DNA of 64,000 nucleotides, taken from assembly GCA_951213105.1 (NCBI GenBank), contig OX578133.1:144722051-144786050 (forward strand), in the 5' to 3' direction. Positions within the stretch are counted from its first letter, which is position 1; each line of letters opens with the position of its first letter. Made by a program: the position numbers and the translations under genes. Of this stretch, positions 27,766-62,364 are shown piece after piece. The notes under the pieces were generated by a model, which was not told the DNA's origin, searched no databases, and worked only from the letters and a program-made list of their open reading frames with translations. The stretch is from Amaurobius ferox. Its lineage: Eukaryota > Arthropoda > Arachnida > Araneae > Amaurobiidae.

Positions 27766-28190
27766 TCTCGCTAATTACTTTTAATATGTGTCAGAAGACG
27801 AAACATATTCTTTATAATGTTAAATATAACGCTGTAAACTGATAATGTGTAATTGAATAAAATTGAAGACCTTTCTATTTACCTTTAAATCTAACTTTGG
27901 ATTTCTGTAAAATTATTACAATTATTAATCATCCCGATATGCTGATAATAGGTGGGTTTTGCGGCCACCAAAGCAATGTACTAAACTACTAATGGCTGTG
28001 GTTAATAAACTTAACTGCACTTTAAAGAGGTGCATGCATTATTAAGATTTTAGAATTAAGTATAAAATGAAATCGGCATACTATGCATGTAAGGGAAGTA
28101 ATAATTCTAAACTTGAGTAAAGTAGTAAAAGGCTTACTGACTGTTATTTTTTCACAATGAAAATTTAAATTATTCTATTTTCAGTTAATA
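27766..28190. other. Non-coding spacer, nothing recognised
   Basis: AT-rich sequence between the Gypsy LTR and the first tRNA-like module. No supported feature. Confidence 0.5.
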
Positions 28191-30110
28191 TCTAGTGGTT
28201 AAAGACTTGCGCAAGTCTGTTGATAGAAGGTTCTGTTCTCTTATCAAAGGCAATGTTTTCAATTACAGTTTCAAATACTAAATGAACAATGTTCTCAGGG
28301 TAAAATATTTTGTGAGTTCTGTCCCAGATTTCTTCTAATCGCCTATCTAGTGAAAGCTTGATATAGTTAAAGAAATATAAAATTGAAACGCTTGCCGTAG
28401 CGCCGTGGTAAAGTTCCGCGGTAAGAGCGTGAAACGAACATTTTCTTCGAAGATTCTGTCCCCCGCGAAATTTAGCCCTATTTTTTCAGATTATTTAAAC
28501 AGACACGTTAACATGTTAGTTCGGGTTCAAGTCAGATGATGATTGAGCATTTCCCGTTCGGATATTGCTCAACATTAATAAAGGAAAAAGTTATCCAAAT
28601 CATTAATAGAAGAAGTCCTTGAATGCTGCATTTCAATTTAGAATTTTATATGTACAAAAAAGATATCAAAATCTTATGTAATATTTTCAATTTTTAATTA
28701 CAAAATATAATGGAAATTGGATATAACATCTAATTTTATACTCAGTATATAATTCTAAACTAAAATGTTGCATTCAAGGGCTTCCTAGCTCAGTTCTTAG
28801 TTTCAGTCAATTTTGTATTTCAAACAATCTAGTGGTTATAGGCATGGTCAACGAACACGAAGGTCTGCTGATAGCGAGCTCTGTCCTCACATAAAATGTA
28901 ATACTTTACTTTTATTACAGTTTTTAATAAATGAACAATGTTTTCAGGATAGAAGATTTTCTGGGTTCTGCCCTCGATTTATTCTAATCGTCTATCCAGT
29001 GAAAACTGGTTATATGTAAAGTAATGTAAAATTACAACTCCATTTGTAGCGCCATCGTAAAGTGCGCCGTAACAGCTTGAATCAAATGTTTTCGTCGAGG
29101 ATTATTTTAGCCGCATTTTTTCAGAATATTTAAACCGACAGATATTAGTTCGGGTTCAAATCAGAAGATAATCGAGCATTTCCCGTACGGATGTTGCTCA
29201 TCATTAACGAAGGGGGGAAATGATCCAGGTAGTCCTTGAATGCTACATTTCAATTTAGAATTTTATATGTAAAACGTCAAAATCTCATGTACTATTTTCA
29301 AATTTCAATTACAAAATAAAGGGAAATTGGATATAACATCTAATTTTATCCCCTTTATATAATTCTAAACTAAAATGTAGCATTCAAGCGCTTCCAGGCT
29401 CTTTCTTTTATTTTTCATAATGAAAACTTAAATAGTTCTTAGTTTCAATCAATCGCGTATTTCAAACGGTCTAGCGATTATAGGCTAGATCAACGAACAC
29501 GAACGTCTGTCTCAATAATCCCTAGTTACTTATAATTTTATGACTTAAACGGTCTATTGGTTATGGACTTGATGATCAAGTGCACGGGTGTATTGATAGT
29601 GAGTTCTGTCCTAAGATCAACTGCAATGGCTTTTTGTTTTATCGAATAGAGTTTCTGAGCTTTTATTAATCAGACGCTTATAAAAGTTTAATTAAAAATA
29701 TTTATGATCGCCAGCGTGTGAACTGGCTGACTCAGTGGTCGTATTGTATAATTCCAATTCAAGAGGCTGTTGTTCGAGTCCGTTAATTCCACTCGCGTTA
29801 GGTGTAGGGTTGTTTATGTGCATTTTTAAAACAATTTCTCCTGTAAGTTTGAATAGATTAATAAGGGTCTCTCTAACGTGAACTGGATGATCAAATGGTC
29901 ATATTGTCTGTTCCAAATTCAAAAGCTAGGGTTCGAGTCCGTACCCTGGTATAGCTATTAGATTCATTTTGGTTTCTGTACATTTACTGATCAACTTATT
30001 TAAACGAACATGTTAAAATGTTAGTTCAGATTCAAATCAGAAGATAATCGAGCATTTTCCGTCCGGTTATTGCTCATCATTAATAAAGGAATAAAATGAT
30101 CCAGGAAATC
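28191..30110 (+). repeat. Diverged modules left of the tRNA-like array
   Basis: These are relatives of the parts used in the array. M2-type on + : 28191-28250, 28829-28900, 29466-29520, 29545-29612 (TCTAGTGGTTAWAG ... GAGTTCTGTCC). M1-type on + : 28390-28480 (TAGCGCCGTGGTAAAG ... GATTCTGTCCCC) and 29046-29110. T1-type on + : 29714-29800 (GACTCAGTGGTC ... TGTTCGAGTCC) and 29878-29950. Palindromes: ~28612-28790 and ~29230-29395. The M modules are on + here but on - inside the array. The 28813-29019 frame is a by-product. Confidence 0.7.
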
Positions 30111-30265
30111 CTTGAATGCTACATTTCAATTTAGAATTGTGTATGTAAGAAGTCAAAATATTTTGTAATATTTGCAATTTTCTATTATAAAATATAATGG
30201 AAATTGGGTATATCATCTTATTTTATCCTCTTTATATGATTCTAAATTAAAATTTAGCATTCAAG
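30111..30265. repeat. Module P: 155-bp imperfect palindrome (unit 1)
   Basis: Starts CTTGAATGCTACATTTCAAT and ends ATTTAGCATTCAAG; the two ends are near-complements over ~45 bp, with a second nested pairing around CAATTTTC/GGAAATTG. The same palindrome occurs in every unit, in the left flank (~28612, ~29230), and as halves at ~47450, ~48000, ~48190 and ~53425. It looks like a MITE-type or fold-back unit captured by the satellite. The recurrent + frame at 30172-30393 and its equivalents just cross it. Confidence 0.7.
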
Positions 30266-30337
30266 TGATTCCTCGATCTTTTTTTTTTATTTTCCATGTT
30301 AAGTTAAGTTTAAATAAGTCAATAAAGGTTCCCATTA

Positions 30338-30415
30338 TGTGTCCTGGCTGGCTCAGTGGTTACGTTGTCTGTATAGAAATCCGGAGGCTGTGAGTTCGAG
30401 TCTATCCTCTCTCGT
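30338..30415 (+). repeat. Module T2: tRNA-like (unit 1)
   Basis: A-box TGGCTCAGTGG at 30349-30359 and B-box GTTCGAGTC at 30394-30402 both match the tRNA consensus. The ends do not form an acceptor stem, so it is a tRNA-derived module and not a tRNA gene. Confidence 0.7.
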
Positions 30416-30507
30416 TGAGAATAGCGATTTCCGTCGTTTTGGTTTCTATGCTTTTACTGATCAGTCTCTCCTTTAAGTTTAAATAGATTAATTAGAATCT
30501 TCTGTTT

Positions 30508-30580
30508 GTGAGCTACCTGGCCTAGTGCTCATGTTGTTCTTGTCCGGCTGCATAGACCGTGGGTTCGAGCCCATTGCTTC
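30508..30580 (+). repeat. Module T3: tRNA-like (unit 1)
   Basis: A-box TGGCCTAGTGC at 30518-30528 and B-box GTTCGAGCC at 30563-30571. It is followed by a T-rich run (TTCTTTTTCTG) that could stop RNA polymerase III. Confidence 0.7.
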
Positions 30581-30651
30581 GTTTTCGTATCTGTTCTTTT
30601 TCTGATTGGTCTCTCCGTTAAGTTTAAATAGATTAATTTGGAGTTACTTTT

Positions 30652-30726
30652 CGTTAGCTGGCTGGCTTAGTGGTCATGTTGCATGTTTTCAATTTCAGCT
30701 GCAGTTGGTTCGAGCCCGTCCACCCG
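30652..30726 (+). repeat. Module T4: tRNA-like (unit 1)
   Basis: A-box TGGCTTAGTGG at 30663-30673 and B-box GTTCGAGCC at 30708-30716. The 64-codon + frame that recurs in most units (30606-30800 here) runs across this module and is not a supported gene. Confidence 0.7.
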
Positions 30727-30790
30727 CAATGAGACGTTTGTGGTTTTCTGGATTTTGCATTAATAAAATTTATTTATTGCTGTTACTCGA

Positions 30791-30820
30791 CCGGAAGTGA
30801 CGTGCCGGAAGTGACGTCAC
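30791..30820 (+). promoter_or_regulatory. ETS/CRE-type composite site (unit 1), with a partial duplicate
   Basis: CCGGAAGTGACGTCAC at 30805-30820, preceded by CCGGAAGTGACGTG. CCGGAAGT is the ETS-family core and TGACGTCA the CREB/ATF core; fused sites of this type are known strong promoter elements in animals. The site recurs at 32744, 34684, 36652, 38584, 40568, 42562, 44516 and 46485 without change. A role here is inference. Confidence 0.5.
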
Positions 30821-30883
30821 TTTTTGTTCACCTATGAAAGAGTGAAGAAAAGAGATGTGTTGAATTAAAAAATACATAACATT

Positions 30884-31231
30884 TTATGACTTCGTTGACG
30901 GAGTCACGTGGGGCAAAACAAGCCCTGCACGAACTTTAGACGAGGAAGGGTGGAAGCGCGACACCGAAGCCAGCAGGCCCGTAGAGAAACCCCACCAGCA
31001 ACGGTGAAGCTCAACCACCGCTCGTCCTCCATCTCGTGCAGATAATTTAGTAAGAAATAAGAAAGTTAAGAGAGGAAAGACAAAGACGAGAAAATCTAAT
31101 CCCCTGCCGCAAAGCCCTACACTATAACACCACAATCGTATTTTTTTATTTCCCAAGTGGGAAACGAACTCCGAACCTACACCCCCGCAACTCGACGCCC
31201 CAAGTCTCTCGGCCAAGAGGGCGACGACCAA
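30884..31231 (-). repeat. Module S: tRNA-like head plus ~250-bp body; 115-codon frame (unit 1)
   Basis: On the reverse strand the head has an A-box-like TTGGCCGAGAGAC (complement of 31204-31216) as in Leu/Ser tRNAs, then GGTTCGGAGTTCGTTTC as a weak B-box. A GC-rich body follows down to the TCACGTGG near 30902. This is the layout of a tRNA-derived SINE. A 115-codon frame stays open in units 1-8 (32823, 34763, 36731, 38663, 42641 and 44595 onward; 155 codons at 40647-41114 after an indel). Its product (N-terminal LLAERLGASSCGGVGSEF, a hydrophobic FLVFVFPLLTFLFLT stretch) resembles no family I know. Because the head is tRNA-like and units are homogenised, I think it is not a protein gene. Confidence 0.55.
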
Positions 31232-31304
31232 CTCTTCGATTTTGGAGTATTTAAGTTTAACATTTTAACATGTCTTCTTAAATAAAACTGAAGAAACACG
31301 GCTA

Positions 31305-31390
31305 AAATTGCCGGGGATAGAACCCTGGACAAAACTTTTGCTTTACGCAATTACCGCAGCACTTTACCGCTGTGCTACGAACGGCGTTGC
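31305..31390 (-). repeat. Module M1: tRNA-like (unit 1)
   Basis: On the reverse strand: A-box TAGCACAGCGGTAAAG (complement of 31362-31377; TAGCGCAGCGGTAAAG in most other units) and B-box GGTTCTATCCC (complement of ~31313-31323). Relatives lie on + at 28390 and 29046. Confidence 0.7.
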
Positions 31391-31529
31391 AAGACTATTT
31401 TATTTTAACTATCTAAATTTTTCATTGGAATGGCGATCAGAATAAATCTGAACAGAAAACCCTCAAAAGCTATTATCCTGACAGCATTGCTTATTAAAAA
31501 TTGTAATCGAAATATGCACCGCGTTTGTC

Positions 31530-31600
31530 TTGAGGACAGAACTCACTATCTACAGGTCTGCGCGTTCTCTGTCGAACACTTTAACCACTAGACCGTTTAA
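31530..31600 (-). repeat. Module M2: tRNA-like (unit 1)
   Basis: On the reverse strand: A-box-like TCTAGTGGTTAAAG (complement of 31579-31592) and B-box-like GAGTTCTGTCC (complement of ~31534-31544). In units 2-5 a 9-nt deletion removes most of this A-box (CACTTGACCG instead of CACTTTAACCACTAGACCG). Confidence 0.65.
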
Positions 31601-31749
31601 ACCACGAGTTAAACAGAAATTGCGAACTATTTAGGTTTTCATTGTTAAAAAATAAAATAAAAGAGCCAGGAACCCCTTGAATGCCATATTTTAGTTTAAA
31701 AATATATAAAAAGTATAGAAGCAGATGTTATATTCAATTTCCTTAAATT

Positions 31750-31812
31750 TTGAATAGATTAGTAAGGGATTAACAAGAGATTAAAAAGTTTGAATAGATT
31801 AATAAGGGTCTC
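31750..31812 (+). repeat. Nested VNTR, ~40-bp unit (unit 1, two copies)
   Basis: GAATAGATTARTAAGGGATT then a RAGAGATTAAAAAGTTT tail. There are two copies here and in units 2, 4, 7 and 8, and three in units 3, 5 and 6. The extra copy accounts for most of the longer unit lengths. Confidence 0.8.
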
Positions 31813-31814
31813 TC

Positions 31815-31890
31815 TCACGTGAACTGGATGGTGAAGTGGTCATATTGTCTGTTCCAATTTCAGAAACTAGGGTTCGAATCCGTCCACTCG
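31815..31890 (+). repeat. Module T1: tRNA-like (unit 1)
   Basis: A-box-like TGGATGGTGAAGTGG at ~31826-31840 and B-box GGTTCGAATCC at 31871-31881. After it come a spacer with TTTTGGTTTCTGTACTTTTAC and a small hairpin (GAGCATTTT...ATTGCTC, ~32003-32030) before the next palindrome. Confidence 0.7.
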
Positions 31891-32064
31891 CAGTGATTAT
31901 AGCTGTTAGACTAGATTCGTTTTGGTTTCTGTACTTTTACTGATCAACATATTTAAACGGACATGTTAAAATGTTAGTTCGGGTTCAAATCAGAAGATAA
32001 TCGAGCATTTTCCCTGCGGATATTGCTCATCATTAATAAAGGAATAAAAATGATCCAGGAAATC

Positions 32065-33993
32065 CTTGAATGCTACATTTCAATTTAGAATTGTGTATGT
32101 AAGAAGTCAAAATATTTTGTAATATTTGCAATTTTCTATTATAAAATATAATGGAAATTGGGTATATCATCTTATTTTATCCTCTTTATATGATTCTAAA
32201 TTAAAATTTAGCATTCAAGTGATTCCTCGATCTTTTTTTTTTAATTTCCATGTTAAGTTAAGTTTAAATAAGTCAATAAAGGTTCCCATTATGTGTCCTG
32301 GCTGGCTCAGTGGTTACGTTGTCTGTATAGAATTCCGGAGGCTGTGAGTTCGAGTCTATCCTCTCTCGTTGAGAATAGCGATTTCCGTCGTTTTGGTTTC
32401 TATGCTTTTACTGATCAGTCTCTCCTTTAAGTTTAAATAGATAAATTAGAATCTTCTGTTTGTGAGCTACCTGGCCTAGTGCTCATGTTGTTCTTGTCCG
32501 GCTGCATAGACTGTGGGTTCGAACCCATTGCTTCGTTTTCGTATCTGTTCTTTTTCTGATTGGTCTCTCCGTTAAGTTTAAATAGATTAATTTGGAGTTA
32601 CTTTTCGTTAGCTGGCTGGCTTAGTGGTCATGTTGCATGCTTTCAATTTCAGCTGCAGTTGGTTCGAGCCAGTCCACCCGCAATGAGACGTTTGTGGTTT
32701 TCTAGATTTTGCATTAATAAAATTTATTATTGCTGTTGCTCGACCGGAAGTGACGTCACTTTTTGTTCACCTATGAAAGAGTGAAGAAAAGAGATGTGTT
32801 GAATTAAAAAATACATGATATTTTATGACTTCGTTGACGGAGTCACGTGGGGCAAAACAAGCCCTGCACGAACTTTAGACGAGGAAGGGTGGAAGCGCGA
32901 CACCGAAGCCAGCAGGCCCGAAGAGAAACCCCACCAGCAACGGTGAAGCTCAACCACCGCTCGTCCTCCATCTCGTGCAGATAATTTAGTAAGAAATAAG
33001 AAAGTTAAGAGAGGAAAGACAAAGACGAGAAAATCTAATCCCCTGCCGCAAAGCCCTACACTATAACACCACAATCGTATTTTTTTATTTCCCAAGTGGG
33101 AAACGAACTCCGAACCTACACCCCCGCAACTGGACGCCCGAAGCCTCTCGGCCAAGAGGGCGACGACCAACTCTTCGATTTTGGAGTATTTAAGTTTAAC
33201 ATTTTAACATGTCTTCTTAAATAAAACTGAAGAAACACGGCTAAAATTGCCGGGGATAGAACCCTGGACAAAACTTTTGCTTTACGCAATTACCGCAGCA
33301 CTTTACCGCTGCGCTACGAACGGCGTTGAAAGACTATTTTATTTTAACTATCTAAATTTTTCATTGGAATGGCGATCAGAATAAATCTGAACAGAAAACC
33401 CTCAAAAGCTATTATCTGACAGCATTGCTTATTAAAAATTGTAATCGAAATATGCACCGCGTTTGTCTTGAGGACAGAACTCACTATCTACAGGTCTGCG
33501 CGTTCGCTGTCGAACACTTGACCGTTTAAACCACGAGTTAAACGGAAATTGCGAACTATTTAGGTTTTCATTGTTAAAAAATAAAAAAAAAGAGCCAGGA
33601 ACCCCTTGAATGCCATATTTAAGTTTAAAAATATATAAAAAGTATAGAAGCAGATGTTATATTCAATTTCCTTAAATTTTGAATAGATTAATAAGGGATT
33701 AACAAGATATTAAAAAGTTTGAATAGATTAATAAGGGTCTCTCTCACGTGAACTGGATGGTGAAGTGGTCATATTGTCTGTTCCAATTTCAGAAACTAGG
33801 GTTCGAATCCGTCCACTCGCAGTGATTATAGCTATTCGACTCGATTCGTTTTGGTTTCTGTACTTTTACTGATCAACTTATTTAAACGGACATGTTAAAA
33901 GGTTAGTTCGGGTTCAAATCAGAAGATAATCGAGCATTTTCCGTGCGGATATTGCTCATCATTAATAAAGGAATAAAAATGATCCAAGAAATC
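32065..33993. repeat. Array unit 2 (1929 bp)
   Basis: Same module order as unit 1. It lacks the partial ETS duplicate (single site at 32744-32759), has the 9-nt deletion in M2 (~33510-33520) and two VNTR copies. These two losses (about 16 + 9 nt) explain its being 25 bp shorter than unit 1. Confidence 0.85.
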
Positions 33994-35972
33994 CTTGAAT
34001 GCTACATTTCAATTTAGAATTGTGTAAGAAGTCAAAATATTTTGTAATATTTGCAATTTTCTATTATAAAATATAATGGAAATTGGGTATATCATCTTAT
34101 TTTATCCTCTTTATATGATTCTAAATTAAAATTTAGCATTCAAGTGATTCCTCGATCTTTTTTTTTAATTTTCCATGTTAAGTTAAGTTTAAATAAGTCA
34201 ATAAAGGTCCCCATTATGTGTCCTGGCTGGCTCAGTGGTTACGTTGTCTGTATAGAATTCCGGAGGCTGTGAGTTCGAGTCTATCCTCTCTCGTTGAGAA
34301 TAGCGATTTCCGTCGTTTTGGTTTCTATGCTTTTACTGATCAGTCTCTCCTTTAAGTTTAAATAGATTAATTAGAATCTTCTGTTTGTGAGCTACCTGGC
34401 CTAGTGCTCATGTTGTTCTTGTCCAGCTGCATAGACTGTGGGTTCGAGCCCATTGCTTCGTTTTCGTATCTGTTCTTTTTCTGATTGGTCTCTCCGTTAA
34501 GTTTAAATAGATTAATTTGGAGTTACTTTTCGTTAGCTGGCTGGCTTAGTGGTCATGTTGCATGTCTTCAATTTCAGCTGCAGTTGGTTCGAGCCCGTCC
34601 ACCCGCAATGAGACGTTTGTGGTTTTCTGGATTTTGCATTAATAAAATTTATTTATTGCAGTTACTCGACCGGAAGTGACGTGCCGGAAGTGACGTCACT
34701 TTTTGTTCACCTATGAAAGAGTGAAGAAAAAAGATGTGTTGAATTAAAAAATACATGATATTTTATGACTTCGTTGACGGAGTCACGTGGGGCAAAACAA
34801 GCCCTGCACGAACTTTAGACGAGGAAGGGTGGAAGCGCGACACCGAAGCCAGCAGGCCCGAAGAGAAACCCCACCAGCAACGGTGAAGCTCAACCACCGC
34901 TCGTCCTCCATCTCGTGCAGATAATTTAGTAAGAAATAAGAAAGTTAAGAGAGGAAAGACAAAGACGAGAAAATCTAATCCCCTGCCGCAAAGCCCTACA
35001 CTATAACACCACAATCGTATTTTTTTATTTCCCAAGTGGGAAACGAACTCCGAACCTACACCCCCGCAACTGGACGCCCCAAGCCTCTCGGCCAAGAGGG
35101 CGACGACCAACTCTTCGATTTTGGAGTATTTAAGTTTAACATTTTAACATGTCTTCTTAAATAAAACTGAAGAAACACGGCTAAAATTGCCGGGGATAGA
35201 ACCCTGGACAAAACTTTTGCTTTACGCAATTACCGCAGCACTTTACCGCTGCGCTACGAACGGCGTTGCAAGACTATTTTATTTTAACTATCTAAATTTT
35301 TCATTGGAATGGCGATCAGAATAAATCTGAACAGAAAACCCTCAAAAGCTATTATCTGACAGCATTGCTTATTAAAAATTGTAATCGAAATATGCACCGC
35401 GTTTGTCTTGCGGACAGAACTCACTATCTACAGGTCTGCGCGTTCGCTGTCGAACACTTGACCGTTTAAACCACGAGTTAAACGGAAATTGCGAACTATT
35501 TAGGTTTTCATTGTTAAAAAATAAAAAAAAGAGCCAGGAACCCCTTGAATGCCATATTTAAGTTTTAAAATATATAAAAAGTATAGAAGCAGATGTTATA
35601 TTCAATTTCCTTAAATTTTGAATAGATTAATAAGGGATTAATAAGAGATTGAAAAGTTTGAATAGATTAATAAGGGATTAATAAGAGATTAAAAAGTTTG
35701 AATAGATTAATAAGGGTCTCTCTCACGTGAACTGGATGGTGAAGTGGTCATATTGTCTGTTCCAATTTCAGAAACTAGGGTTCGAATCCGTCCACTCGCA
35801 GTGATTATAGCTATTCGACTCGATTCGTTTTGGTTTCTGTACTTTTACTGATCAACTTATTTAAACGGACATGTTAAAATGTTAGTTCGGGTTCAAATCA
35901 GAAGATAATCGAGCATTTTCCGTGCGGATATTGCTCATCATTAATAAAGGGAAAAAAATGATCCAGGAAATC
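33994..35972. repeat. Array unit 3 (1979 bp)
   Basis: ETS/CRE site at 34684-34699 with the upstream duplicate, M2 deletion present (~35451-35462), three VNTR copies (~35620-35715), and a 4-nt deletion in the palindrome (GTGTAAGAAG at ~34021). Confidence 0.85.
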
Positions 35973-37903
35973 CTTGAATGCTACATTTCAATTTAGAATT
36001 GTGTATGTAAGAAGTCAAAATATTTTGTAATATTTGCAATTTTCTATTATAAAATATAATGGAAATTGGGTATATCATCTTATTTTATCCTCTTTATATG
36101 ATTCTAAATTAAAATTTAGCATTCAAGTGATTCCTCGAACTTTTTTTTTTATTTTCCATGTTAAGTTAAATTTAAATAAGTCAATAAAGGTTCCCATTAT
36201 GTGTCCTGGCTGGCTCAGTGGTTACGTTGTCTGTATAGAATTCCGGAGGCTGTGAGTTCGAGTCTATCCCCTCTCGTTGAGAATAGCGATTTCTGTCGTT
36301 TTGGTTTCTATGCTTTACTGATCAGTCTCTCCTTTAAGTTTAAATAGATTAATTAGAATCTTCTGTTTGTGAGCTACCTGGCCTAGTGCTCATGTTGTTC
36401 TTGTCCGGCTGCATAGACTGTGGGTTCGAGCCCATTGCTTCGTTTTCGTATCTGTTCTTTTTCTGATTGGTCTCTCCGTTAAGTTTAAATAGATTAATTT
36501 GGAGTTGCACTTCGTTAGCTGGCTGGCTTAGTGGTCATGTTGCATGTTTTCAATTTCAGCTGCAGTTGGTTCGAGCCCGTCCACCCGCAATGAGACGTTT
36601 GCGGTTTTCTGGATTTTGCATTAATAAAATTTATTTATTGCTGTTACTCAACCGGAAGTGACGTCACTTTTTGTTCACCTACGAAAGAGTGAAGAAAAGA
36701 GATGTCTTGAAATAAAAAATACATGATATTTTATGACTTCGTTGACGGAGTCACGTGGGGCAAAACAAGCCCTGCACGAACTTTAGACGAGGAAGGGTGG
36801 AAGCGCGACACCGAAGCCAGCAGGCCCGAAGAGAAACCCCACCAGCAACGGTGAAGCTCAACCACCGCTCGTCCTCCATCTCGTGCAGATAATTTAGTAA
36901 GAAATAAGAAAGTTAAGAGAGGAAAGACAAAGACGAGAAAATCTAATCCCCTGCCGCAAAGCCCTACACTATAACACCACAATCGTATTTTTTTATTTCC
37001 CAAGTGGGAAACGAACTCCGAACCTACACCCCCGCAACTTGACGCCTCAAGCCTCTCGGCCAAGAGGGCGACGACCAACTCTTCGATTTTGGAGTATTTA
37101 AGTTTAACATTTTAACATGTCTTCTTAAATAAAACTGAAGAAACACGGCTAAAATTGCCGGGGATAGAACCCTGGACAAAACTTTTGCTTTACGCAATTA
37201 CCGCAGCACTTTACCGCTGCGCTACGAACGGCGTTGCAAGACTATTTTATTTTAACTATCTAAATTTTTCATTGGAATGGCGATCAGAATAAATCTGAAC
37301 AGAAAACCCTCAAAAGCTGTTATCCTGACAGCATTGCTTATTAAAAATTGTAATCGTAATATGCACCGCGTTTGTCTTGAGGACAGAACTCACTATCTAC
37401 AGGTCTGCGCGTTCGCTGTCGAACACTTGACCGTTTAAACCACGAGTTAAACGGAAATTGCGAACTATTTAGGTTTTCATTGTTAAAAAATAAAAAAAAA
37501 AGAGCCAGGAACCCCTTGAATGCCATATTTTAGTTTAAAAATATATAAAAAGTATAGAAGCAGATGTTATATTCAAATTCCTTAAATTTTGAATAGATTA
37601 ATAAGGGATTAACAAGATATTAAAAAGTTTGAATAGATTAATAAGGGTCTCTCTCACGTGAACTGGATGGTGAAGTGGTCATATTGTCTGTTCCAATTTC
37701 AGAAACTAGGGTTCGAATCCGTCCACTCGCAGTGATTATAGCTATTCGACTCGATTCGTTTTGGTTTCTGTACTTTTACTGATCAACTTATTTAAACGGA
37801 CATGTTAAAAGGTTAGTTCGGGTTCAAATCAGAAGATAATCGAGCATTTTCCGTGCGGATATTGCTCATCATTAATAAAGGAATAAAAATGATCCAAGAA
37901 ATC
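35973..37903. repeat. Array unit 4 (1931 bp)
   Basis: Single ETS/CRE site (36652-36667), M2 deletion (~37421-37432), two VNTR copies. It shares with unit 5 the variants CAACCGG before the ETS site and AGATGTCTTGAAATAAAA after it, so units 4 and 5 are sister copies. Confidence 0.85.
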
Positions 37904-39874
37904 CTTGAATGCTACATTTCAATTTAGAATTGTGTATGTAAGAAGTCAAAATATTTTGTAATATTTGCAATTTTCTATTATAAAATATAATGGAAATTGG
38001 GTATATCATCTTATTTTATCCTCTTTATATGATTCTAAATTAAAATTTAGCATTCAAGTGATTCCTCGATCTTTTTTTTTTATTTTCCATGTTAAGTTAA
38101 GTTTAAATAAGTCAATAAAGGTTCCCATTATGTGCCCTGGCTGGCTCAGTGGTTACGTTGTCTGTATAGAATTCCGGAGGCTGTGAGTTCGAGTCTATCC
38201 CCTCTCGTTGAGAATAGCGATTTCTGTCGTTTTGGTTTCTATGCTTTTACTGATCAGTCTCTCCTTTAAGTTTAAATAGATTAATTAGAATCTTCTGTTT
38301 GTGAGCTACCTGGCCTAGTGCTCATGTTGTTCTTGTCCGGCTGCATAGACTGTGGGTTCGAGCCCATTGCTTCGTTTTCGTATCTGTTCTTTTTCTGATT
38401 GGTCTCTCCGTTAAGTTTAAATAGATTAATTTGGAGTTATACTTCGTTAGCTGGCTGGCTTAGTGGTCATGTTGCATGTTTTCAATTTCAGCTGCAGTTG
38501 GTTCGAGCCCGTCCACCCGCAATGAGACGTTTGCGGTTTTCTGGATTTTGCATTAATAAAATTTATTTATTGCTGTTACTCAACCGGAAGTGACGTCACT
38601 TTTTGTTCACCTACGAAAGAGTGAAGAAAAGAGATGTCTTGAAATAAAAAATACATGATATTTTATGACTTCGTTGACGGAGTCACGTGGGGCAAAACAA
38701 GCACTGCACGAACTTTAGACGAGGAAGGGTGGAAGCGCGACACCGAAGCCAGCAGGCCCGAAGAGAAACCCCACCAGCAACGGTGAAGCTCAACCACCGC
38801 TCGTCCTCCATCTCGTGCAGATAATTTAGTAAGAAATAAGAAAGTTAAGAGAGGAAAGACAAAGACGAGAAAATATAATCCCCTGCCGCAAAGCCCTACA
38901 CTATAACACCACAATCGTATTTTTTTATTTCCCAAGTGGGAAACGAACTCCGAACCTACACCCCCGCAACTTGACGCCCCAAGCCTCTCGGCCAAGAGGG
39001 CGACGACCAACTCTTCGATTTTGGAGTATTTAAGTTTAACATTTTAACATGTCTTCTTAAATAAAACTGAAGAAACACGGCTAAAATTGCCGGGGATAGA
39101 ACCCTGGACAAAACTTTTGCTTTACACAATTACCGCAGCACTTTACCGCTGCGCTACGAACGGCGTTGCGAGACTATTTTATTTTAACTATCTAAATTTT
39201 TCATTGGAATGGCGATCAGAATAAATCTGAACAGAAAACACTCAAAAGCTATTATCCTGACAGCATTGCTTATTAAAAATTGTAATCGAAATATGCACCG
39301 CGTTTGTCTTGAGGACAGAACTCACTATCTACACGTCTGCGCGTTCGCTGTCGAACACTTGACCGTTTAAACCACGAGTTAAACGGAAATTGCGAACTAT
39401 TTAGGTTTTCATTGTTAAAAAATAAAAAAAAAGAGCCAGGAACCCCTTGAATGCCATATTTTAGTTTAAAAATATATAAAAAGTATAGAAGCAGATGTTA
39501 TATTCAATTTCCTTAAATTTTGAATAGATTAATAAGGGATTAATAAGAGATTAAAAAGTTTGAATAGATTAATAAGGGATTAATAAGAGATTAAAAAGTT
39601 TGAATAGATTAATAAGGGTCTCTCTCACGTGAACTGGATGGTGAAGTGGTCATATTGTCTGTTCCAATTTCAGAAACTAGGGTTCGAATCCGTCCACTCG
39701 CAGTGATTATAGCTATTCGACTCGATTCGTTTTGGTTTCTGTACTTTTACTGATCAACTTATTTAAACGGACATGTTAAAATGTTAGTTCGAGTTCAAAT
39801 CAGAAGATAATCGAGCATTTTCCGTGCGGATATTTCTCATCATTAATAAAGGAAAAAAAATGATCCAGGAAATC
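37904..39874. repeat. Array unit 5 (1971 bp)
   Basis: Sister of unit 4 by shared variants. Single ETS/CRE site at 38584-38599, M2 deletion at ~39354-39364, three VNTR copies (~39525-39620). Confidence 0.85.
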
Positions 39875-41868
39875 CTTGAATGCTACATTTCAATTTAGAA
39901 TTGTGTATGTAAGAAGTCAAAATATTTTGTAATATTTGCAATTTTCTATAATAAAATATAATGGAAATTGGGTATATCATCTTATTTTATCCTCTTTATA
40001 TGATTCTAAATTAAAATTTAGCATTCAAGTGATTCCTCGATCTTTTTTTTTATTTTCCATGTTAAGTTAAGTTTAAATAAGTCAATAAAGGTTCCCATTA
40101 TGTGTCCTGGCTGGCTCAGTGGTTACGTTGTCTGTATAGAATTCCGGAGGCTGTGAGTTCGAGTCTATCCCCTCTCGTTGAGAATAGCGATTTCCGTCGT
40201 TTTGGTTTCTATGCTTTTACTGATCAGTCTCTCCTTTAAGTTTAAATAGATTAATTAGAATCTTCTGTTTGTGAGCTACCTGGCCTAGTGCTCATGTTGT
40301 TCTTGTCCGGCTGCATAGACTGTGGGTTCGAGCCCATTGCTTCGTTTTCGTATCTGTTCTTTTTCTGATTGGTCTCTCCGTTAAGTTTAAATAGATTAAT
40401 TTGGAGTTACTTTTCGTTAGCTGGCTGGCTTAGTGGTCATGTTGCATGTTTTCAATTTCAGCTGCAGTTGGTTCGAGCCCGTCCACCCGCAATGAGACGT
40501 TTGTGGTTTTCTGGATTTTGCATTAATAAAATTTATTTATTGCAGTTACTCGACCGGAGATGACGTGCCGGAAGTGACGTCACTTTTTGTTCACTTATGA
40601 AAGAGTGAAGAAAAGAGATGTGTTGAATTAAAAAATACATGATATTTTATGACTTCGTTGACGGAGTCACGTGGGGCAAAACAAGCCCTGCACGAACTTT
40701 AGACGAGGAAGGGTGGAAGCGCGACACCGAAGCCAGCAGGCCCGAAGAGAAACCCCACCAGCAACGGTGAAGCTCAACCACCGCTCGTCCTCCATCTCGT
40801 GCAGATAATTTAGTAAGAAATAAGAAAGTTAAGAGAGGAAAGACAAAGACGAGAAAATCTAATCCCCTGCCGCAAAGCCCTACACTATAACACCACAATC
40901 GTATTTTTTTATTTTCCAAGTGGGAAACGAACTCCGAACCTACACCCCCGCAACTCGACGCCCCAAGCCTCTCGGCCAAGAGGGTGACGACATAACTCTT
41001 CGATTTTGGAGTATTTAAGTTTAACATTTTAACATGTCTTCTTAAATAAAACTGAAGAAACACGGCTAAAATTGCCGGGGATAGAACCCTGGACAAAACA
41101 TTTGCTTTACGCAATTACCGCAGCACTTTACCGCTGTGCTACGAACGGCGTTGCAAGACTGTTTTATTTTAACTATCTAAATTTTTCATTGGAATGGCGA
41201 TCGGAATAAATCTGAACAGAAAACCCTCAAAAGCTATTATCCGGACAGCATTGCTTATTTAAAATTGTAATCGAAATATGCACCGCGTTTGTCTTGAGGA
41301 CAGAACTCACTATCTACAGGTCTGCGCGTTCGCTGTCGAACACTTTAACCACTAGACCGTTTAAACCACGAGTTAAACGGAAATTGCGAACTATTTAGGT
41401 TTTCATTGTTAAAAAATAAAAAAAAAGAGCCAGGAACCCCTTGAATGCCATATTTTAGTTTAAAAATATATAAAAAGTATAGAAGCAGATGTTATATTCA
41501 ATTTCCTTAAATTTTGAATAGATTAATAAGGGATTAATAAGAGATTAAAAAGTTTGAATAGATTAATAAGGGATTAATAAGAGATTAAAAAGTTTGAATA
41601 GATTAATAAGGGTCTCTCTCACGTGAACTGGATGGTGAAGTGGTCATATTGTCTGTTCCAATTTCAGAAACTAGGGTTCGAATCCGTCCACTCGCAGTGA
41701 TTATAGCTATTCGACTCGATTCGTTTTGGTTTCTGTACTTTTACTGATCAACTTATTTAAACGGACATGTTAAAATGTTAGTTCGAGTTCAAATCAGAAG
41801 ATAATCGAGCATTTTCCGTGCGGATATTGCTCATCATTAATAAAGGAAAAAAAATGATTCAGGAAATC
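39875..41868. repeat. Array unit 6 (1994 bp)
   Basis: The longest unit: intact M2, three VNTR copies (~41515-41612), and an ETS duplicate in altered form (CCGGAGATGACGTG) before 40568. The - frame of module S is extended to 155 codons (40647-41114) by an indel at ~40990 (GACGACATAACTC). Confidence 0.85.
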
Positions 41869-43821
41869 CTTGAATGCTACATTTCAATTTAGAATTGTGT
41901 ATGTAAGAAGTCAAAATATTTTGTAATATTTGCAATTTTCTATAATAAAATATAATGGAAATTGGGTATATCATCTTATTTTATCCTCTTTTTATGATTC
42001 TAAATTAAAATTTAGCATTCAAGTGATTCCTCGATCTTTTTTTTTATTTTCCATGTTAAGTTAAGTTTAAATAAGTCAATAAAGGTTCCCATTATGTGTC
42101 CTGGCTGGCTCAGTGGTTACGTTGTCTGTATAGAATTCCGGAGGCTGTGAGTTCGAGTCTATCCCCTCTCGTTGAGAATAGCGATTTCCGTCGTTTTGGT
42201 TTCTATGCTTTTACTGATCAGTCTCTCCTTTAAGTTTAAATAGATTAATTAGAATCTTCTGTTTGTGAGCTACCTGGCCTAGTGCTCATGTTGTTCTTGT
42301 CCGGCTGCATAGACTGTGGGTTCGAGCCCATTGCTTCGTTTTCGTATCTGTTCTTTTTCTGATTGGTCTCTCCGTTAAGTTTAAATAGATTAATTTGGAG
42401 TTACTTTTCGTTAGCTGGCTGGCTTAGTGGTCATGTTGCATGTTTTCAATTTCAGCTGCAGTTGGTTCGAGCCCGTCCACCCGCAATGAGACGTTTGTGG
42501 TTTTCTGGATTTTGCATTAATAAAATTTATTTATTGCAGTTACTCGACCGGAGATGACGTGCCGGAAGTGACGTCACTTTTTGTTCACTTATGAAAGAGT
42601 GAAGAAAAGAGATGTGTTGAATTAAAAAATACATGATATTTTATGACTTCGTTGACGGAGTCACGTGGGGCAAAACAAGCCCTGCACGAACTTTAGACGA
42701 GGAAGGGTGGAAGCGCGACACCGAAGCCAGCAGGCCCGAAGAGAAACCCCACCAGCAACGGTGAAGCTCAACCACCGCTCGTCCTCCATCTCGTGCAGAT
42801 AATTTAGTAAGAAATAAGAAAGTTAAGAGAGGAAAGACAAAGACGAGTAAATCTAATCCCCTGTCGCAAAGCCCTACACTATAACACCGCAATCGTATTT
42901 TTTTATTTCCCAAGTGGGAAACGAACTCCGAACCTACACCCCCGCAACTTGACGCCCCAAGCCTCTCGGCCAAGAGGGCGACGACCAACTCTTCGATTTT
43001 GGAGTATTTAAGTTTAACATTTTAACATGTCTTCTTAAATAAAACTGAAGAAACACGGCTAAAATTGCCGGGGATAGAACCCTGGACAAAACTTTTGCTT
43101 TACGCAATTACCGCAGCACTTTACCGCTGCGCTACGAACGGCGTTGCAAGACTATTTTATTTTAACTATCTAAATTTTTCATTGGAATGGCGTTCAGAAT
43201 AAATCTGAACAGAAAACCCTCAAAAGCTATTATCCTGACAGCATTGCTTATTAAAAATTGTAATCGAAATATGCACCGCGTTTGTCTTGAGGACAGAACT
43301 CTTTATCTACAGGACTGCGCGTTCGCTGTGGAACACTTTAACCACTAGACCGTTTAAACTACGAGTTAAACGGAAATTGCGAACTATTTAGGTTTTCATT
43401 GTTAAAAAATAAAAAAAAAGAGCCAGGAACCCCTTGAATGCCATATTTTAGTTTAAAAATATATAAAAAGTATAGAAGCAGATGTTATATTCAATTTCCT
43501 TAAATTTTGAATAGAGTAATAAGGGATTAATAAGAGATTAAAAAGTTTGAATAGATTAATAAGGGTCTCTCTCACGTGAACTGGATGGTGAAGTGGTCAT
43601 ATTGTCTGTTCCAATTTCAGAAACTAGGGTTCGAATCCGTCCACTCGCAGTGATTATAGCTATTCGACTCGATTCGTTTTGGTTTCTGTACTTTTACTGA
43701 TCAACTTATTTAAACGGACATGTTAAAATGTTAGTTCGGGTTCAAATCAGAAGATAATCGAGCATTTTCCGTGCGGATATTGCTCATCATTAATAAAGGG
43801 GAAAAAATGATCCAGGAAATC
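41869..43821. repeat. Array unit 7 (1953 bp)
   Basis: Shares the altered ETS duplicate CCGGAGATGACGTG with unit 6 (site at 42562-42577), so units 6 and 7 are sisters. Intact M2 (~43330-43350) and two VNTR copies. Confidence 0.85.
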
Positions 43822-45775
43822 CTTGAATGCTACATTTCAATTTAGAATTGTGTATGTAAGAAGTCAAAATATCTTGTAATATTTGCAATTTTCTATAATA
43901 AAATATAATGGAAATTGGGTATATCATCTTATTTTATCCTCTTTATATGATTCTAAATTAAAATTTAGCATTCAAGTGATTCCTCGATCTTTTTTTCTTA
44001 TTTTCCATGTTAAGTTAAGTTTAAATAAGTCAATAAAGGTTCCCATTATGTGTCCTGGCTGGCTCAGTGGTTACGTTGTCTGTATAGAATTCCGGAGGCT
44101 GTGAGTTCGAGTCTATCCCCTCTCGTTGAGAATAGCGATTTCCGTCGTTTTGGTTTCTATGCTTTTACTGATCAGTCTCTCCTTTAAGTTTAAATAGATT
44201 AATTAGAATCTTCTGTTTGTGAGCTACCTGGCCTAGTGCTCATGTTGTTCTTGTCCGGCTGCATAGACTGTGGGTTCGAGCCCATTGCTTCGTTTTCGTA
44301 TCTGTTCTTTTTGTGATTGGTCTCTCCGTTAAGTTTAAATAGATTAATTTGGAGTTACTTTTCGTTAGCTGGCTGGCTTAGTGGTCATATTGCATGTTTT
44401 CAATTTCAGCTGCAGTTGGTTCGAGCCCGTCCACCCGCAATGAGAAGTTTGTGGTTTTCTGGATTTTGCATTAATAAAATTTATTTATTGCTGTTACTCG
44501 ACCGGAAGTGACGTGCCGGAAGTGACGTCACTTTTTGTTCACCTATGAAAGAGTGAAGAAAAGAGATGTGTTGAATTAAAAAATACATGATATTTTATGA
44601 CTTCGTTGACGGAGTCACGTGGGGCAAAACAAGCCCTGCACGAACTTTAGACGAGGAAGGGTGGAAGCGCGACACCGAAGCCAGCAGGCCCGAAGAGAAA
44701 CCCCACCAGCAACGGTGAAGCTCAACCACCGCTCGTCCTCCATCTCGTGCAGATAATTTAGTAAGAAATAAGAAAGTTAAGAGAGGAAAGACAAAGACGA
44801 GAAAATCTAATCCCCTGTCGCAAAGCCCTACACTATAACACCACAATCGTATTTTTTTATTTCCCAAGTGGGAAACGAACTCCGAACCTACACCCCCGCA
44901 ACTCGACGCCCCAAGCCTCTCGGCCAAGAGGGTGACGACCAACTCTTCGATTTTGGAGTATTTAAGTTTAACATTTTAACATGTCTTCTTAAATAAAACT
45001 GAAGAAACACGGCTAAAATTGCCGGGGATAGAACCCTGGACAAAACATTTGCTTTACGCAATTACCGCAGCACTTTACCGCTGTGCTACGAACGGCGTTG
45101 CAAGACTGTTTTATTTTAACTATCTAAATTTTTCATTGGAATGGCGATCGGAATAAATCTGAACAGAAAACCCTCAAAAGCTATTATCCTGACAGCATTG
45201 CTTATTTAAAATTGTAATCGAAATATGCACCGCGTTTGTCTTGAGGACAGAACTCACTAGCTACAGGTCTGCGCGTTCGCTGTCGAACACTTTAACCACT
45301 AGACCGTTTAAACCACGAGTTAAACGGAAATTGCGAACTATTTAGGTTTTCATTGTTAAAAAATAAAAAAAAAGAGCCAGGAACCCCTTGAATGCCATAT
45401 TTTAGTTTACAAATATATAAAAAGTATAGAAGCAGATGTTATATTCAATTTCCTTAAATTTTGAATAGATTGATAAGGGATTAATAAGAGATTAAAAAGT
45501 TTGAATAGATTAATAAGGGTCTCTCTCACGTGAACTGGATGGTGAAGTGGTCATATTGTCTGTTTAAATTTCAGAAACTAGTTTTCGAATCCGTCCACTC
45601 GCAGTGATTATAGCTATTCGACTCGATTCGTTTTGGTTTCTGTACTTTTACTGATCAACTTATTTAAACGGACATGTTAAAATGTTAGTTCGGGTTCAAA
45701 TCAGAAGATAATCGAGCATTTTCCGTGCGGATATTGCTCATCATTAATAAAGGAAAAAAAATGATCCAGGAAATC
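43822..45775. repeat. Array unit 8 (1954 bp)
   Basis: Same composition as unit 1: duplicated ETS site (44516-44531), intact M2, two VNTR copies. It shares GGGTGACGAC (module S) and CAAAACATTTGC with unit 6. Confidence 0.85.
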
Positions 45776-47410
45776 CTTGAATGCTACATTTCAATTTAGA
45801 ATTGTGTATGTAAGAAGTCAAAATATTTTGTAATATTTGCAATTTTTTATTATAAAATATAATGGAAATTGGGTATATCATCCTATTTTATCCTCTTTAT
45901 ATGATTCTAAATTGAAATTTAGCATTCAAATGATTCCTCGATCTTTTTTTTTTATTTTCCATATTAAGTTAAGTTTAAATAAGTCAATAAAGGTTCCCAT
46001 TATGTGTCCTGGCTGGCTCAGTGGTTACGTTGTCTGTATAGAATTCCGGAGGCTGTGAGTTCGAGTCTATCCCCTCTCGTTGAGAATAGCGATTTCCGTC
46101 GTTTTGGTTTCTATGCTTTTACTGATCAGTCTCTCTTTTAAGTTTAAATAGATTAATTAAAATCTTCTGTTTGTGAGCTGCCTGGCCTAGTGCTCATGTT
46201 GTTCTTGTCCGACTGCATAGAGTTTGGGTTCGAACCCATTGCTTCGTTTTCGTATCTGTTCTTTTTCTGATTGGTCTCTCCGTTAAGTTTAAATAGATTA
46301 ATTTGGAGTCACTTTACGTGAGCTGGCTGGCTTAGTGGTCATGTTGCATATTTTCAATTTCAGCTGCTGTTGGTTCGAGCCCGTCCACCCGCAATGAGAC
46401 GCTTGTGGTTTTCTGGATTTTGCATTAATAAAATTTATTTATTGCTGTTACTCGACCGGAAGTGACGTCGCAGGAAATGGCGTGCCGGAAGTGACGTCAC
46501 TTTTTGTTCACCTATGGATGAGTGAAGAAAAGAGATGTGTTGAATTAAAAAATACATAACATTTTATGACTTCGTTGACGGAGTCACGTGGGGCAAAACA
46601 AGCCCTGCGCGAACTTTAGACGAGGAAGGGGGGGAGCGCGACACCGAAGCCAGCAGGCCCGAAGAGAAACCCCACCAGCAACGGTGAAGCTCAACCACCG
46701 CTCGTCCTTCATCTCGTGCAGATAATTTAGTAAGAAATAAGAAAGTTAAGACAAAGACGTAAATCGAGAAAATCCAATCCCCTGCCGCAAAGCGCTACAC
46801 TTCAACACCACAATCGTATTATTTTTTTTTACCCAAGTGGGAGACGAACTCCGAACCTACACCCCCGCAACTCGACGCCCCAAGCCTCTCGGCCAAGAGG
46901 GCGACGACCAAATCTTCTATTTTGGCGTATTTAATTTTAACATTTTAACATGTCTTCTTAAATAAAACTGAAGAAACGCGGCTAAAATTGTCGGGGATAG
47001 AACCCTGGACAAAACTTTTGCTTTACGCTATTACCGTGGCACTTAACCGCTGTGCTACGAAAGACGTTGCAAGTTTGTTTTATTTTAACTATCTAAAGTT
47101 TCATTGGAATGACGATCGGAATAAATCTGAGCAGAACCCTAGAAAGCTATTATCCTGACAGCTTTGCTTATTTAATATTGTAATCGAAATATGCACCGCG
47201 TTTGAGTTGCGGACAGAACTCACTACCTACAGGTCTGCGCGTTTGCTTTAGAACACTTTAACCACTAGACCGTTTAAACCACGAGTTAAACGGAAATTGC
47301 GAACTATTTAGGTTTTCATTGTTAAAAAACATATTGTTAAAATGCCATATTGTAGTTTAAAAATATATAAAAAGTATAAAGGCAGATGTTATATTCAATT
47401 TCCTTAAATT
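45776..47410. repeat. Array unit 9, diverged and truncated
   Basis: Palindrome, T2-T4, ETS/CRE site (46485-46500, with two degenerate upstream copies), S, M1 and M2 are all present but carry many more substitutions than units 1-8, and the 115-codon frame is closed. After M2 the unit loses register. Greater divergence at the edge is typical of tandem arrays kept similar by unequal exchange. Confidence 0.8.
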
Positions 47411-48340
47411 TTGAAATAGAAAATTGCAAATATTATATAAGATTTTGATCTCTTACATATAAAATTCTAAATTGAAATGTAGCATTCATGAACTTTCTGG
47501 CGCATTTTCCCCTTTATTAATGATGAGCAATCACCGCACGAGAAATGCTCAATCATCATTTGAACCTATACTGACGATTTAATATGTTCGTTTAAACAAT
47601 CTGAAAAAATGCGACTATAATATGCGGAGGGCCGAATCCTCGACGAAAACGCTTGTTTCATGCAGTTTCCGCGAAACTTTATCACTGCGTAACGACTGAC
47701 GTTGCAGTTTTATATTACTTTATCACTATAAGGCTTTCATTGGATTGACGATTAGAATATATGTGGAGCAGAACTCACAAAATGAGCAGTGTTCCCTGAG
47801 AACGTTGTCCATTTATTATTTAAAACTGTAATCGAAAAAAAGAATTGTGTTTGATGTGAGGACAGAACTCACCATCACCAGACATACGGGTCTACTGCCC
47901 AAGACTTTAACCACTGTACTATTCGAATCACGAAATTTACTGAAATTAGAAACTATATAAATACTCATAATTAAAAATTAAAAGAAGAACCAGGAAACCC
48001 TTGAATGCTATATTTTCGTTTATACGAAGCACTTGAATGCTATATTTTAGTTTAGAATTATATAAAGAGGATTAATCAGATGTTATATGCAATTTCCATT
48101 ACATTTTACAATTGAAAATGTCAAATAGTACATAAGGTTTTACCCTCTTACCTATAATCAATACGAGTACTGCAGAAAGTTTTAGATGATAAGAAGTTCT
48201 TGAAAACTATATTTCAATTCATCATTTTGTATGTAAGAAGTGAATACCATTATGTAGTATTTGCAATTTTTTATTATAAAAATAAATGGAAATTGGATAT
48301 AACATCTGGTTTTCTCCTCTTTAAAATATATGGTATGGAT
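47411..48340 (-). repeat. Diverged modules right of the array
   Basis: Continues with degenerate parts: half palindrome (~47450-47500), reverse-strand GATGAGCAAT hairpin piece (~47520-47550), M1-type (~47630-47700, -), M2-type (~47862-47930, -), palindrome-related stretches (~48000-48130 and ~48190-48330). The small frames at 48200-48391 and 48274-48468 are incidental. Confidence 0.65.
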
Positions 48341-49700: not shown

Positions 49701-50275
49701 TGAACATATTTTAATGGATTCTGATCACAAGTTATTCGGATTAAAGTGTGTAATCTATTCGCTGCGATTTCCTGGTGTTCATTTATCTGAATCATTATAG
49801 GAGGCAGTTAGATACTGAAATTCAATAACAAAATATAATACTGTGCGAAAATGCTTCTTACCGTACTACTTGAACAAGTAAAATTAACTTGAGTGTGGCC
49901 CAGAATCCATTTCTGTTCCATTTCTGTTTCATTCAAATTTTACAAGAAAATTTTGAAAAATCGGTACATGGTTCTAAATGATTACAATTATAGCATGTTA
50001 CCCTTTCTACAAAGGACTTTAAAAAGCTTTCCATTTATACCATACTTGCCAATGTATCCACCGAGAGCGGGTAACTTGGCCCCCGAAGCGGCTAATGACG
50101 CCGCGAACAAAGAATTGTATCGCGGGTATTTTTCCCAACAATGATTCAAAGATTTATAAAATCTCGTGATCATTGATCCGTAAATAAACCCTTTTATGCA
50201 TGAATATGTCATATTTTGTCCTATGTTGCCATGTTAAATAAATATGAATTTTAAAATAAATTTTCAAATTTTCGC
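49701..50275. other. Anonymous stretch with an unsupported open frame
   Basis: The + frame at 49893-50144 (83 codons) has a distinctive second half (MYPPRAGNLAPEAANDAANK) in a locally GC-richer patch at ~50050-50115. I do not recognise it, and an overlapping - frame is also open. Confidence 0.3.
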
Positions 50276-50279
50276 TCGA

Positions 50280-50535: not shown

Positions 50536-50783
50536 TTTGTCTTTTTGAGTGTATTTACGTTACGTTTAAGGAAATCGCAGGTAATCTGCATTAGAATTAA
50601 ATCTAATTGTAGCTGGAATCTCCTAGCGTTCAGCGTTAGTTAAAAGTGACAAATTTTGTAAATTATAATAGCGAGAACCTTTACTTTTAGCGATCCTAAT
50701 CCAAATAACTCTTCTTTTAATTAGTTCAATCAGTGGAATTCCAAAGCATGTCTCATTATAAAACCCTTAAAATCGCTTCTGAC

Positions 50784-53318: not shown

Positions 53319-53329
53319 AAAAAGTGTAT

Positions 53330-53480: not shown

Positions 53481-53484
53481 GACC

Positions 53485-53680: not shown

Positions 53681-53684
53681 TTCC

Positions 53685-62362: not shown

Positions 62363-62364
62363 TA

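Follow-up and report, generated by a model that had tools for sequence, protein, structure and literature searches.

A tandem array of tRNA-like promoter modules in the spider Amaurobius ferox is the amplified core of a dispersed composite repeat

Results

Nine tandem units carry tRNA-like modules on both strands

The window analysed here is a 64-kb stretch of the genome of the spider Amaurobius ferox (C2:144,722,051-144,786,050; genome size 3.56 Gb), and its central feature is a tandem array of nine units of 1918-1994 bp in which tRNA-like modules, each with an A box and a B box of the kind found in RNA polymerase III (Pol III) promoters, recur on both strands. Unit alignment places the array, to which no strand is assigned, at 29855..47420, with units 1-9 starting at 29855, 31792, 33721, 35700, 37631, 39602, 41596, 43549 and 45503, and gives a pairwise unit identity of 97-99% (94-95% for unit 9). 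A preliminary description had located the array at 30111..47410; the array is real but longer, and the earlier start cuts off a module of unit 1 (T1A, A box at 29,888). Each unit is built from modules T1A, T1B, T1C and T1D on the plus strand and S, T2 and T3 on the minus strand. The four T1 modules are present in all nine units, as are S and T2, whereas the A box of T3 is intact in 5/9, no A box being found in units 2-5, which have a deletion there. The earlier picture of seven modules (four plus, three minus) per unit of ~1.95 kb holds in all nine units for six types and in five for T3. Because the T3 A box is missing from 4/9 units, the number of A boxes in the array comes to 59 over ~17.5 kb, in place of the "more than 60" sites in 17 kb first estimated. 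The plus-strand modules are separated by a common spacer (75-80% identity at 145 bp), as had been proposed.

In unit 5, T1A lies at 37628..37720 on the plus strand, with TTTGAATA at 37628-37635, its A box from 37668 and its B box from 37710; the T1A A boxes of units 1-9 start at 29888, 31829, 33758, 35737, 37668, 39639, 41633, 43586 and 45540, and the B box of the unit 9 copy is damaged. T1B follows at 38102..38196 (+; TTTAAATA, A box from 38142, B box from 38186), with A-box starts at 30349, 32303, 34228, 36211, 38142, 40112, 42106, 44060 and 46014 in units 1-9. T1C occupies 38271..38365 (+; TTTAAATA, A box from 38311, B box from 38355), the nine A boxes starting at 30518, 32472, 34397, 36379, 38311, 40281, 42275, 44229 and 46183, and T1D occupies 38416..38510 (+; TTTAAATA, A box from 38456, B box from 38500), with A-box starts at 30663, 32617, 34542, 36524, 38456, 40426, 42420, 44374 and 46328. 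On the minus strand S lies at 38939..39034, with CTTAAATA at 39034-39027, the A box from 38994 and the B box from 38949; the first bases of its A boxes in units 1-9 are 31215, 33154, 35094, 37062, 38994, 40978, 42972, 44926 and 46895. T2 lies at 39093..39196 (-; TTTAGATA, A box from 39156, B box GGTTCTATCCC from 39103), its A boxes beginning at 31377, 33316, 35256, 37224, 39156, 41141, 43134, 45088 and 47057. For T3 we give the copy in unit 6, at 41298..41399 (-; CCTAAATA, A box from 41359, variant B box GAGTTCTGTCC from 41308); the intact A boxes, in units 1 and 6-9, begin at 31595, 41359, 43352, 45306 and 47272. Self-comparison also places an imperfect palindrome, called pal, between T1A and T1B (unit 5, 37882..38080, ends approximate, no strand assigned) and a half copy of pal at the unit end.

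A and B boxes occur far above chance in modules that are not tRNAs

The window was scanned for A/B pairs with the consensus TRGYNNARNNG for the A box (at most 1 mismatch) and GGTTCGANTCC for the B box (at most 2), at a gap of 25-60. Positions 30,111-47,410 hold 53 such pairs (35 plus, 18 minus) compared with a mean of 2.27 and a maximum of 6 in 30 dinucleotide shuffles, and on this point the preliminary description is borne out. The outer parts of the window hold 2 pairs in 1-28,000 (shuffles 2.27) and 2 in 49,000-64,000 (shuffles 1.17), and the left flank at 28,000-30,110 holds 3, compared with 0.17 in shuffles. Pairs of the strict mismatch class (0,1) number 15, compared with 0.03 in shuffles, and are found exclusively on the plus strand; by this consensus the B boxes of the minus-strand modules are weaker, with 2 mismatches in S and T2 and more in T3. 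The gap from A to B box is 31-33 on the plus modules and 34, 42 and 40 on the minus modules. The array thus contains A and B boxes 30-60 bp apart above chance, as in type-2 Pol III promoters, and a spacing of 30-60 bp is given as optimal in the part of PMC11346459 consulted. As a tandem repeat with a tRNA-like segment it also falls among the tRNA-like Pol III satellites of the OAX or PolIII/TAN kind.

The modules are tRNA-like but are not tRNAs. ARAGORN found no tRNA in the window, and the Rfam tRNA covariance model (RF00005) matched nothing at E<=10 in 7.1 kb of sequence or in four stretches of one module each, and nothing at E<=1 in 15 dispersed loci, whereas the 56 tRNA matches scored in the genome reach 44-76 bits; with both programs negative in the window and the Rfam model negative in the dispersed copies, we rejected the possibility that the modules are genuine tRNAs. 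T2 weakly matches mascRNA-menRNA (13 bits, E 2.4), and there is a match to isrK (E 0.063); we regard both as chance. Although TTTT follows all seven consensus modules, T-runs are common in AT-rich DNA. A structured RNA from T1 is unsupported, its folds being weaker than those of shuffles (z score +0.8 to +1.5), and the T1 pattern was not found in viral contigs.

Two side observations concern tRNA-like sequence in the genome at large. The tRNA family returned 428,777 first-look candidates genome-wide, 63 of them scored, a possible sign that the genome is heavily loaded with tRNA-like repeats. A 0.56-Mb stretch, C17:18640198-19202214, holds 19 of the 56 scored tRNA matches, those read being lysine-type, and further clusters lie on C9 and C3.

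All module types share an upstream motif at a fixed distance from the A box

TTTRAATA stands exactly 32 nt upstream of the A box in all four plus-strand module types, and a TTTAAATA-like motif recurs at that distance in every module type. When the motif and offset learnt from T1 were applied to S, T2 and T3, the matches had 1, 1 and 2 mismatches, respectively (shuffle P 0.0028, 0.0035 and 0.029); the best motif match falls at the 32-nt offset in all seven types, tied with other offsets in T2 and T3. Outside the motif and boxes the module types have little in common, agreeing at 6-13 of the 32 spacer positions. When the window was scanned for the full series of motif, 32 nt, A box, 28-45 nt and B box, 53 matches fell in the array (36 plus, 17 minus), including the T1A of unit 1 that lies before 30,111, and none in the window outside the array; shuffles of the whole 64 kb average 0.4 (maximum 3). 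The 32-nt spacing is kept in 133/148 T1, 19/21 S, 24/32 T2 and 33/44 T3 copies. As a separate observation, a 40-bp tandem duplication directly upstream of T1A in units 4, 6 and 7 (35613-35716, 39515-39618 and 41509-41612) multiplies the TTTGAATA motif.

We compared conservation at the promoter positions with that elsewhere in the modules, using 56/148 T1 copies (under 85% pairwise identity) and 18/21 S, 25/32 T2 and 35/44 T3 copies (under 93%); because such tests compare related sequences at the level of the family, their P values serve as guides. In T1 the motif is conserved at 87.8%, the A box at 82.1% and the B box at 77.3%, and together these positions reach 82.1% compared with 61.3% at other positions (P 0.0002 by random blocks). 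In T3 the corresponding values are 85.4, 78.3 and 87.5%, together 84.3% compared with 66.2% elsewhere (P 0.0005), the B box being a conserved variant, GAGTTCTGTCC. Variation among the nine window units falls below expectation in the motif (1/56 sites, P 0.03) and in the whole set (12/210 sites where 21.3 are expected, P 0.032).

A conserved hairpin domain lies between S and the T1 modules

Between S and the T1 array sits a GC block that is the most conserved part of the element. Computed folds give it a hairpin of 105-122 nt with energies of -51 to -68 kcal/mol and z scores of -3.0 to -6.5 in 16/17 dispersed copies, the exception (locus L024) reaching -40 with z +0.5. All nine window units have the hairpin, with z between -3.1 and -6.5. 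In unit 5 the 120-nt hairpin domain lies on the minus strand at 38702..38821 (z -4.9); its counterparts, all on the minus strand, are at 30923..31042 (unit 1, 120 nt, z -5.3), 32862..32981 (unit 2, z -5.6), 34802..34921 (unit 3, z -4.8), 36770..36889 (unit 4, z -4.8), 40686..40805 (unit 6, z -6.5), 42680..42799 (unit 7, z -5.0), 44634..44753 (unit 8, z -5.9) and 46603..46722 (unit 9, z -3.1). TTTT directly follows the hairpin in 16/16 aligned sequences, 309-362 nt from S, and in 8/15 loci scanned from 60 nt past the S start it is the first TTTT met.

A minus-strand frame through the GC block seemed coding in the window; it is not open throughout in the dispersed copies, and we rejected it. The block adjoining the T1 array carries TGACGT in 15/17 sequences, at a site which we take to be ETS/CRE-like.

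The unit is the core of an element dispersed through the genome

A genome search with T2/T3, in which 40 of 970 first-look candidates were scored, found the sequence on 11 contigs among the scored places, with 73-79% identity away from two array loci. The order T3>T2>S>GC block, facing a convergent T1 array, recurs at 11 of the 12 loci read, on ten contigs; in the DNA read at the twelfth, L024, there is no T1. On C9, two T1 "satellites", with 40 and 17 T1 modules as counted by comparison, have the same neighbours in the same order; a T1 array on C9 has 37 copies of 173 bp. At C2:150.58 Mb a second locus has units 93-96% similar in the same order. Four further loci were chosen by similarity to a segment called ins: one (L027) has the full order, one has a single T1 and two have older units alone. 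The dispersed loci, picked by similarity to the window T2/T3 (12 loci) or to ins (4 loci), are therefore a non-random sample.

The number of T1 modules per locus ranges from 4 to 40 by comparison, some loci being cut by the fetched ends, and from 3 to 25 by strict scan in eight 20-kb neighbourhoods. In these neighbourhoods the ~36 kb of element account for all 85 complete modules of any type and the surrounding ~124 kb for 0, a split that arises partly by construction because the element spans, although drawn before counting, were drawn from shared similarity and T1 positions. Two copies have common pieces over at least 5.8 kb, and the dispersed copies read are composite, upstream parts included. 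Inverted pal-T3 parts flank the T1 array in C3a, C4 and C10 (70-77% over 254-437 bp), with similarity continuing beyond them; in the C20, C9 and C3b stretches tested there is no such inverted pair, and no target-site duplication was found. No shared open reading frame occurs in the copies looked at, whose longest frames are short and differing, and a window frame of 155 amino acids has no Pfam match and no relatives at E<=10.

Taken together, these comparisons show at the level of sequence that the core of a dispersed, composite and non-coding repeat has been amplified nine-fold in tandem to give the array. In the light of the genome loci we gave up a plain satellite view (old units of ~640 bp plus 145-bp monomers). 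What had been called a higher-order satellite of tRNA-like Pol III promoter modules keeps its modular build, with conserved promoter positions in T1 and T3; its unit is instead the core of a dispersed element, its modules have the fixed upstream motif, and the unit includes a hairpin domain absent from the earlier description. A full-text literature search returned no recognisable description of this element, which is not proof of absence. Separately, left of ins in the C3a neighbourhood (L029, about 8700), there is a tRNA-like stretch on the minus strand, GGAGTTCGCTCC, that may be a fifth module type.

The modules are probably present or past Pol III promoters

We consider it probable, with appreciable doubt, that the array is the amplified core of a dispersed repeat whose modules are present or past type-2 Pol III promoters, with a hairpin RNA driven by S and spread at the DNA level. 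The layout of the modules (a YTTAAATA-like motif, 32 nt, an A box, 31-43 nt and a B box) is consistent with such promoters. The A and B boxes would be the binding sites of TFIIIC, and TBP/TFIIIB would sit on the motif, which lies about -33 to -26 relative to the tRNA-like start; the part of PMC11346459 consulted describes a role of upstream TATA-like elements in tRNA genes from silkworm, Drosophila, fission yeast and Arabidopsis. The transcript driven by S would be roughly 310-355 nt long, with the hairpin and TTTT at its end, and the T1 modules would yield unstructured RNAs of about 80-105 nt. Since copies keep upstream and neighbouring parts, the element appears to have spread at the DNA level as a non-autonomous repeat, and unequal exchange presumably enlarges T1 arrays as well as entire cores. 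Most probably the array in this window is a by-product with many potential TFIIIC sites and is not under selection for a local role.

Several results weigh against this reading. The excess conservation of promoter positions in S has P 0.07 (motif 92.4%, A box 92.3%, B box 70.7%, compared with 69.1%), and T2 has no excess (P 0.23; motif 83.4%, A box 76.8%, B box 78.3%, compared with 76.1%). Between window units the A and B boxes alone are not less variable (P 0.23 and 0.38); two of the three runs in this analysis omitted the divergent T1A of unit 1, and one omitted the flanking copy. In the window consensus TTTT falls between the A and B boxes of T1D and T2, and an earlier TTTT precedes the hairpin in 7/15 loci and in the window S module consensus. 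Covariation in the hairpin (21 cells changed on one or both sides yet paired, 9 cells unpaired) is not above that in shuffles, the hairpin sequence being too conserved for such a test to decide. Element ends, target-site duplications and a mode of spread were looked for in the dispersed copies and not found. Finally, the motif is not at -40 in 20 genuine tRNA genes (of 56 scored, mostly one lysine type), where the mean is 2.35/8 matches compared with 2.82 over all offsets. The idea that the motif is the normal tRNA promoter of this genome failed this test; it is therefore not the usual promoter of these genes and may simply be inherited. As far as tested, the motif appears to mark this repeat family, either as an inheritance from the common ancestor of the modules or as a family-specific promoter part.

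Some of these results lend weight to a neutral alternative, in which the motifs are relics of ancient tRNA-derived repeats, neither the array nor its dispersed relatives are ever transcribed, and their likeness has been kept by tandem growth alone. The absence of motif-specific conservation in T2, the TTTT between the boxes of T1D and T2 and the tRNA genes without a -40 motif all fit it, as does the youth of the units, which are 97-99% alike and whose identity, given that youth, says little. We nevertheless think it unlikely, although it deserves serious attention, as T1 copies under 85% alike keep the motif, A box and B box above the rest, T3 does likewise, the motif-to-A spacing is kept, and the most conserved part of the element is a structured domain. 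At the other extreme, the sequence features would allow a novel non-coding locus that is mobile and consists of a set of Pol III genes scattered through the genome, with T3, T2 and S facing a convergent T1 array and with a family-specific -40 element; its main product might be an S-driven RNA of about 330 nt with a conserved hairpin of about 120 nt, possibly a small-RNA precursor or an aid to spread of the element; we hold this stronger version to be doubtful.

The remaining explanations account for less. That the array is a chromatin boundary or a clustered TFIIIC platform with a selected local function, as the preliminary description had suggested, gains from the 59 A boxes in 17.5 kb and from a human tRNA tandem repeat of 9-43 units that is implicated as a boundary on CTCF evidence (PMC4041453); the modules, however, sit in dispersed elements on many contigs, unlike placement at one border, and such a role seems improbable. 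We give as little credence to a composite SINE (short interspersed element), in which S and the GC block would form a SINE with a tRNA-type head and a conserved domain at its centre, while T1, T2 and T3 would be the heads of further SINE families brought in by insertion: S is indeed followed by a conserved structured block and TTTT, as a SINE head is by its domain, but retroposed copies would leave the upstream motif behind, whereas here a matching motif is kept at a fixed distance, the same module order and orientation recurs at 11/12 loci, and no tail or target duplication was found. A SINE birthplace, also proposed earlier, is likewise not favoured because the copies read carry the upstream motif and neighbours, as DNA-level duplication does, and because within the 64-kb window T1 copies were found in the array and directly beside it and nowhere else. 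Decay of tandemly arrayed genuine tRNA genes, such as those of Entamoeba or human 1q23.3, would explain A and B boxes on both strands of a kilobase unit; we regard it as very improbable given the lack of any tRNA match in window or dispersed copies, in a genome with 56 such matches, and the 20 genuine tRNA genes without the -40 motif.

Related systems resemble the element in part

The tRNA-like modules recall gammaherpesvirus RNAs that have a tRNA-like Pol III promoter followed by a hairpin. This resemblance is one of layout alone, as here the repeat is dispersed and genomic, has one hairpin of about 120 nt and is known from sequence. Pol III-type tandem repeats with a tRNA-like segment, as here, include newt PolIII/TAN, Xenopus OAX satellite I, Rana/polIII and Hydromantes Hy/polIII, in the passages of PMC10702118 consulted, which call the tRNA origin of Hy/polIII questionable and state that PolIII/TAN is transcribed in vitro. 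Those passages mention one tRNA-like segment per repeat, whereas the present unit has up to seven modules, which belong to four types and occupy both strands; and the fixed upstream motif, the hairpin domain and the dispersal of the same composite set it apart from the amphibian families as described there. The squamate SINE-derived satellites in the same excerpt (PMC10702118) are also tandem, some with a tRNA-like promoter box, and of similar unit size (67-215 nt), but here no parent SINE is shown, the upstream motif is included and several module types stand in fixed order. Tandem tRNA gene arrays, at human 1q23.3 (PMC4041453, in part; units 98% alike, 9-43 copies, Pol III promoter units on both strands as here) and in Entamoeba (PMC2652664, in part; repeat units with Pol III promoters, again as here), hold genuine tRNA genes, whereas no module here matched as a tRNA. 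The combination of several module types in fixed convergent order, upstream motif, hairpin and dispersal thus appears to distinguish the element from the systems compared.

If transcribed, the element would represent a family of repeats by which Pol III promoters are carried around the genome in complete sets, and its 4 to 40 T1 modules per locus would serve as natural replicates for the effects of clustered TFIIIC on chromatin. It could then also show whether an upstream TATA-like element defines a class of Pol III genes, and would bear on how dispersed repeats turn into higher-order satellites.

Flanks of the array and other features of the window

Left of the array, at 28144..29640 (+), lie divergent older copies of T3, T2, ins and pal (about 64-90%), and a divergent T1 module (TGACTCAGTGG, TGTTCGAGTCC) adjoins the array at 29717..29800 (+). 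Divergent older pal, ins, T2 and T3 follow on the right at 47421..48323 (-), in the orientation opposite to that of the left flank. Within the array CCGGAAGTGACGTG is duplicated in units 1, 3 and 8 (30791-30817, 34670-34696 and 44502-44528), and outside it a lone fragment of ins and pal (74-80%) lies at 53332-53477, near a Tc3-like transposase relic. Elsewhere in the window, two related open frames in opposite orientation, at 7706-8886 (-) and 12017-12547 (+), probably belong to a mobile element, and 24746-25315, 51238-51726, 52626-52931 and 62656-63639 hold relics of Ty3-type RNase H, hAT transposase and Tc1/Tc3-type transposases. Similar open frames (WMPPPLGSGLNWVALP...) are repeated at 57160-60035, suggesting another interspersed repeat.

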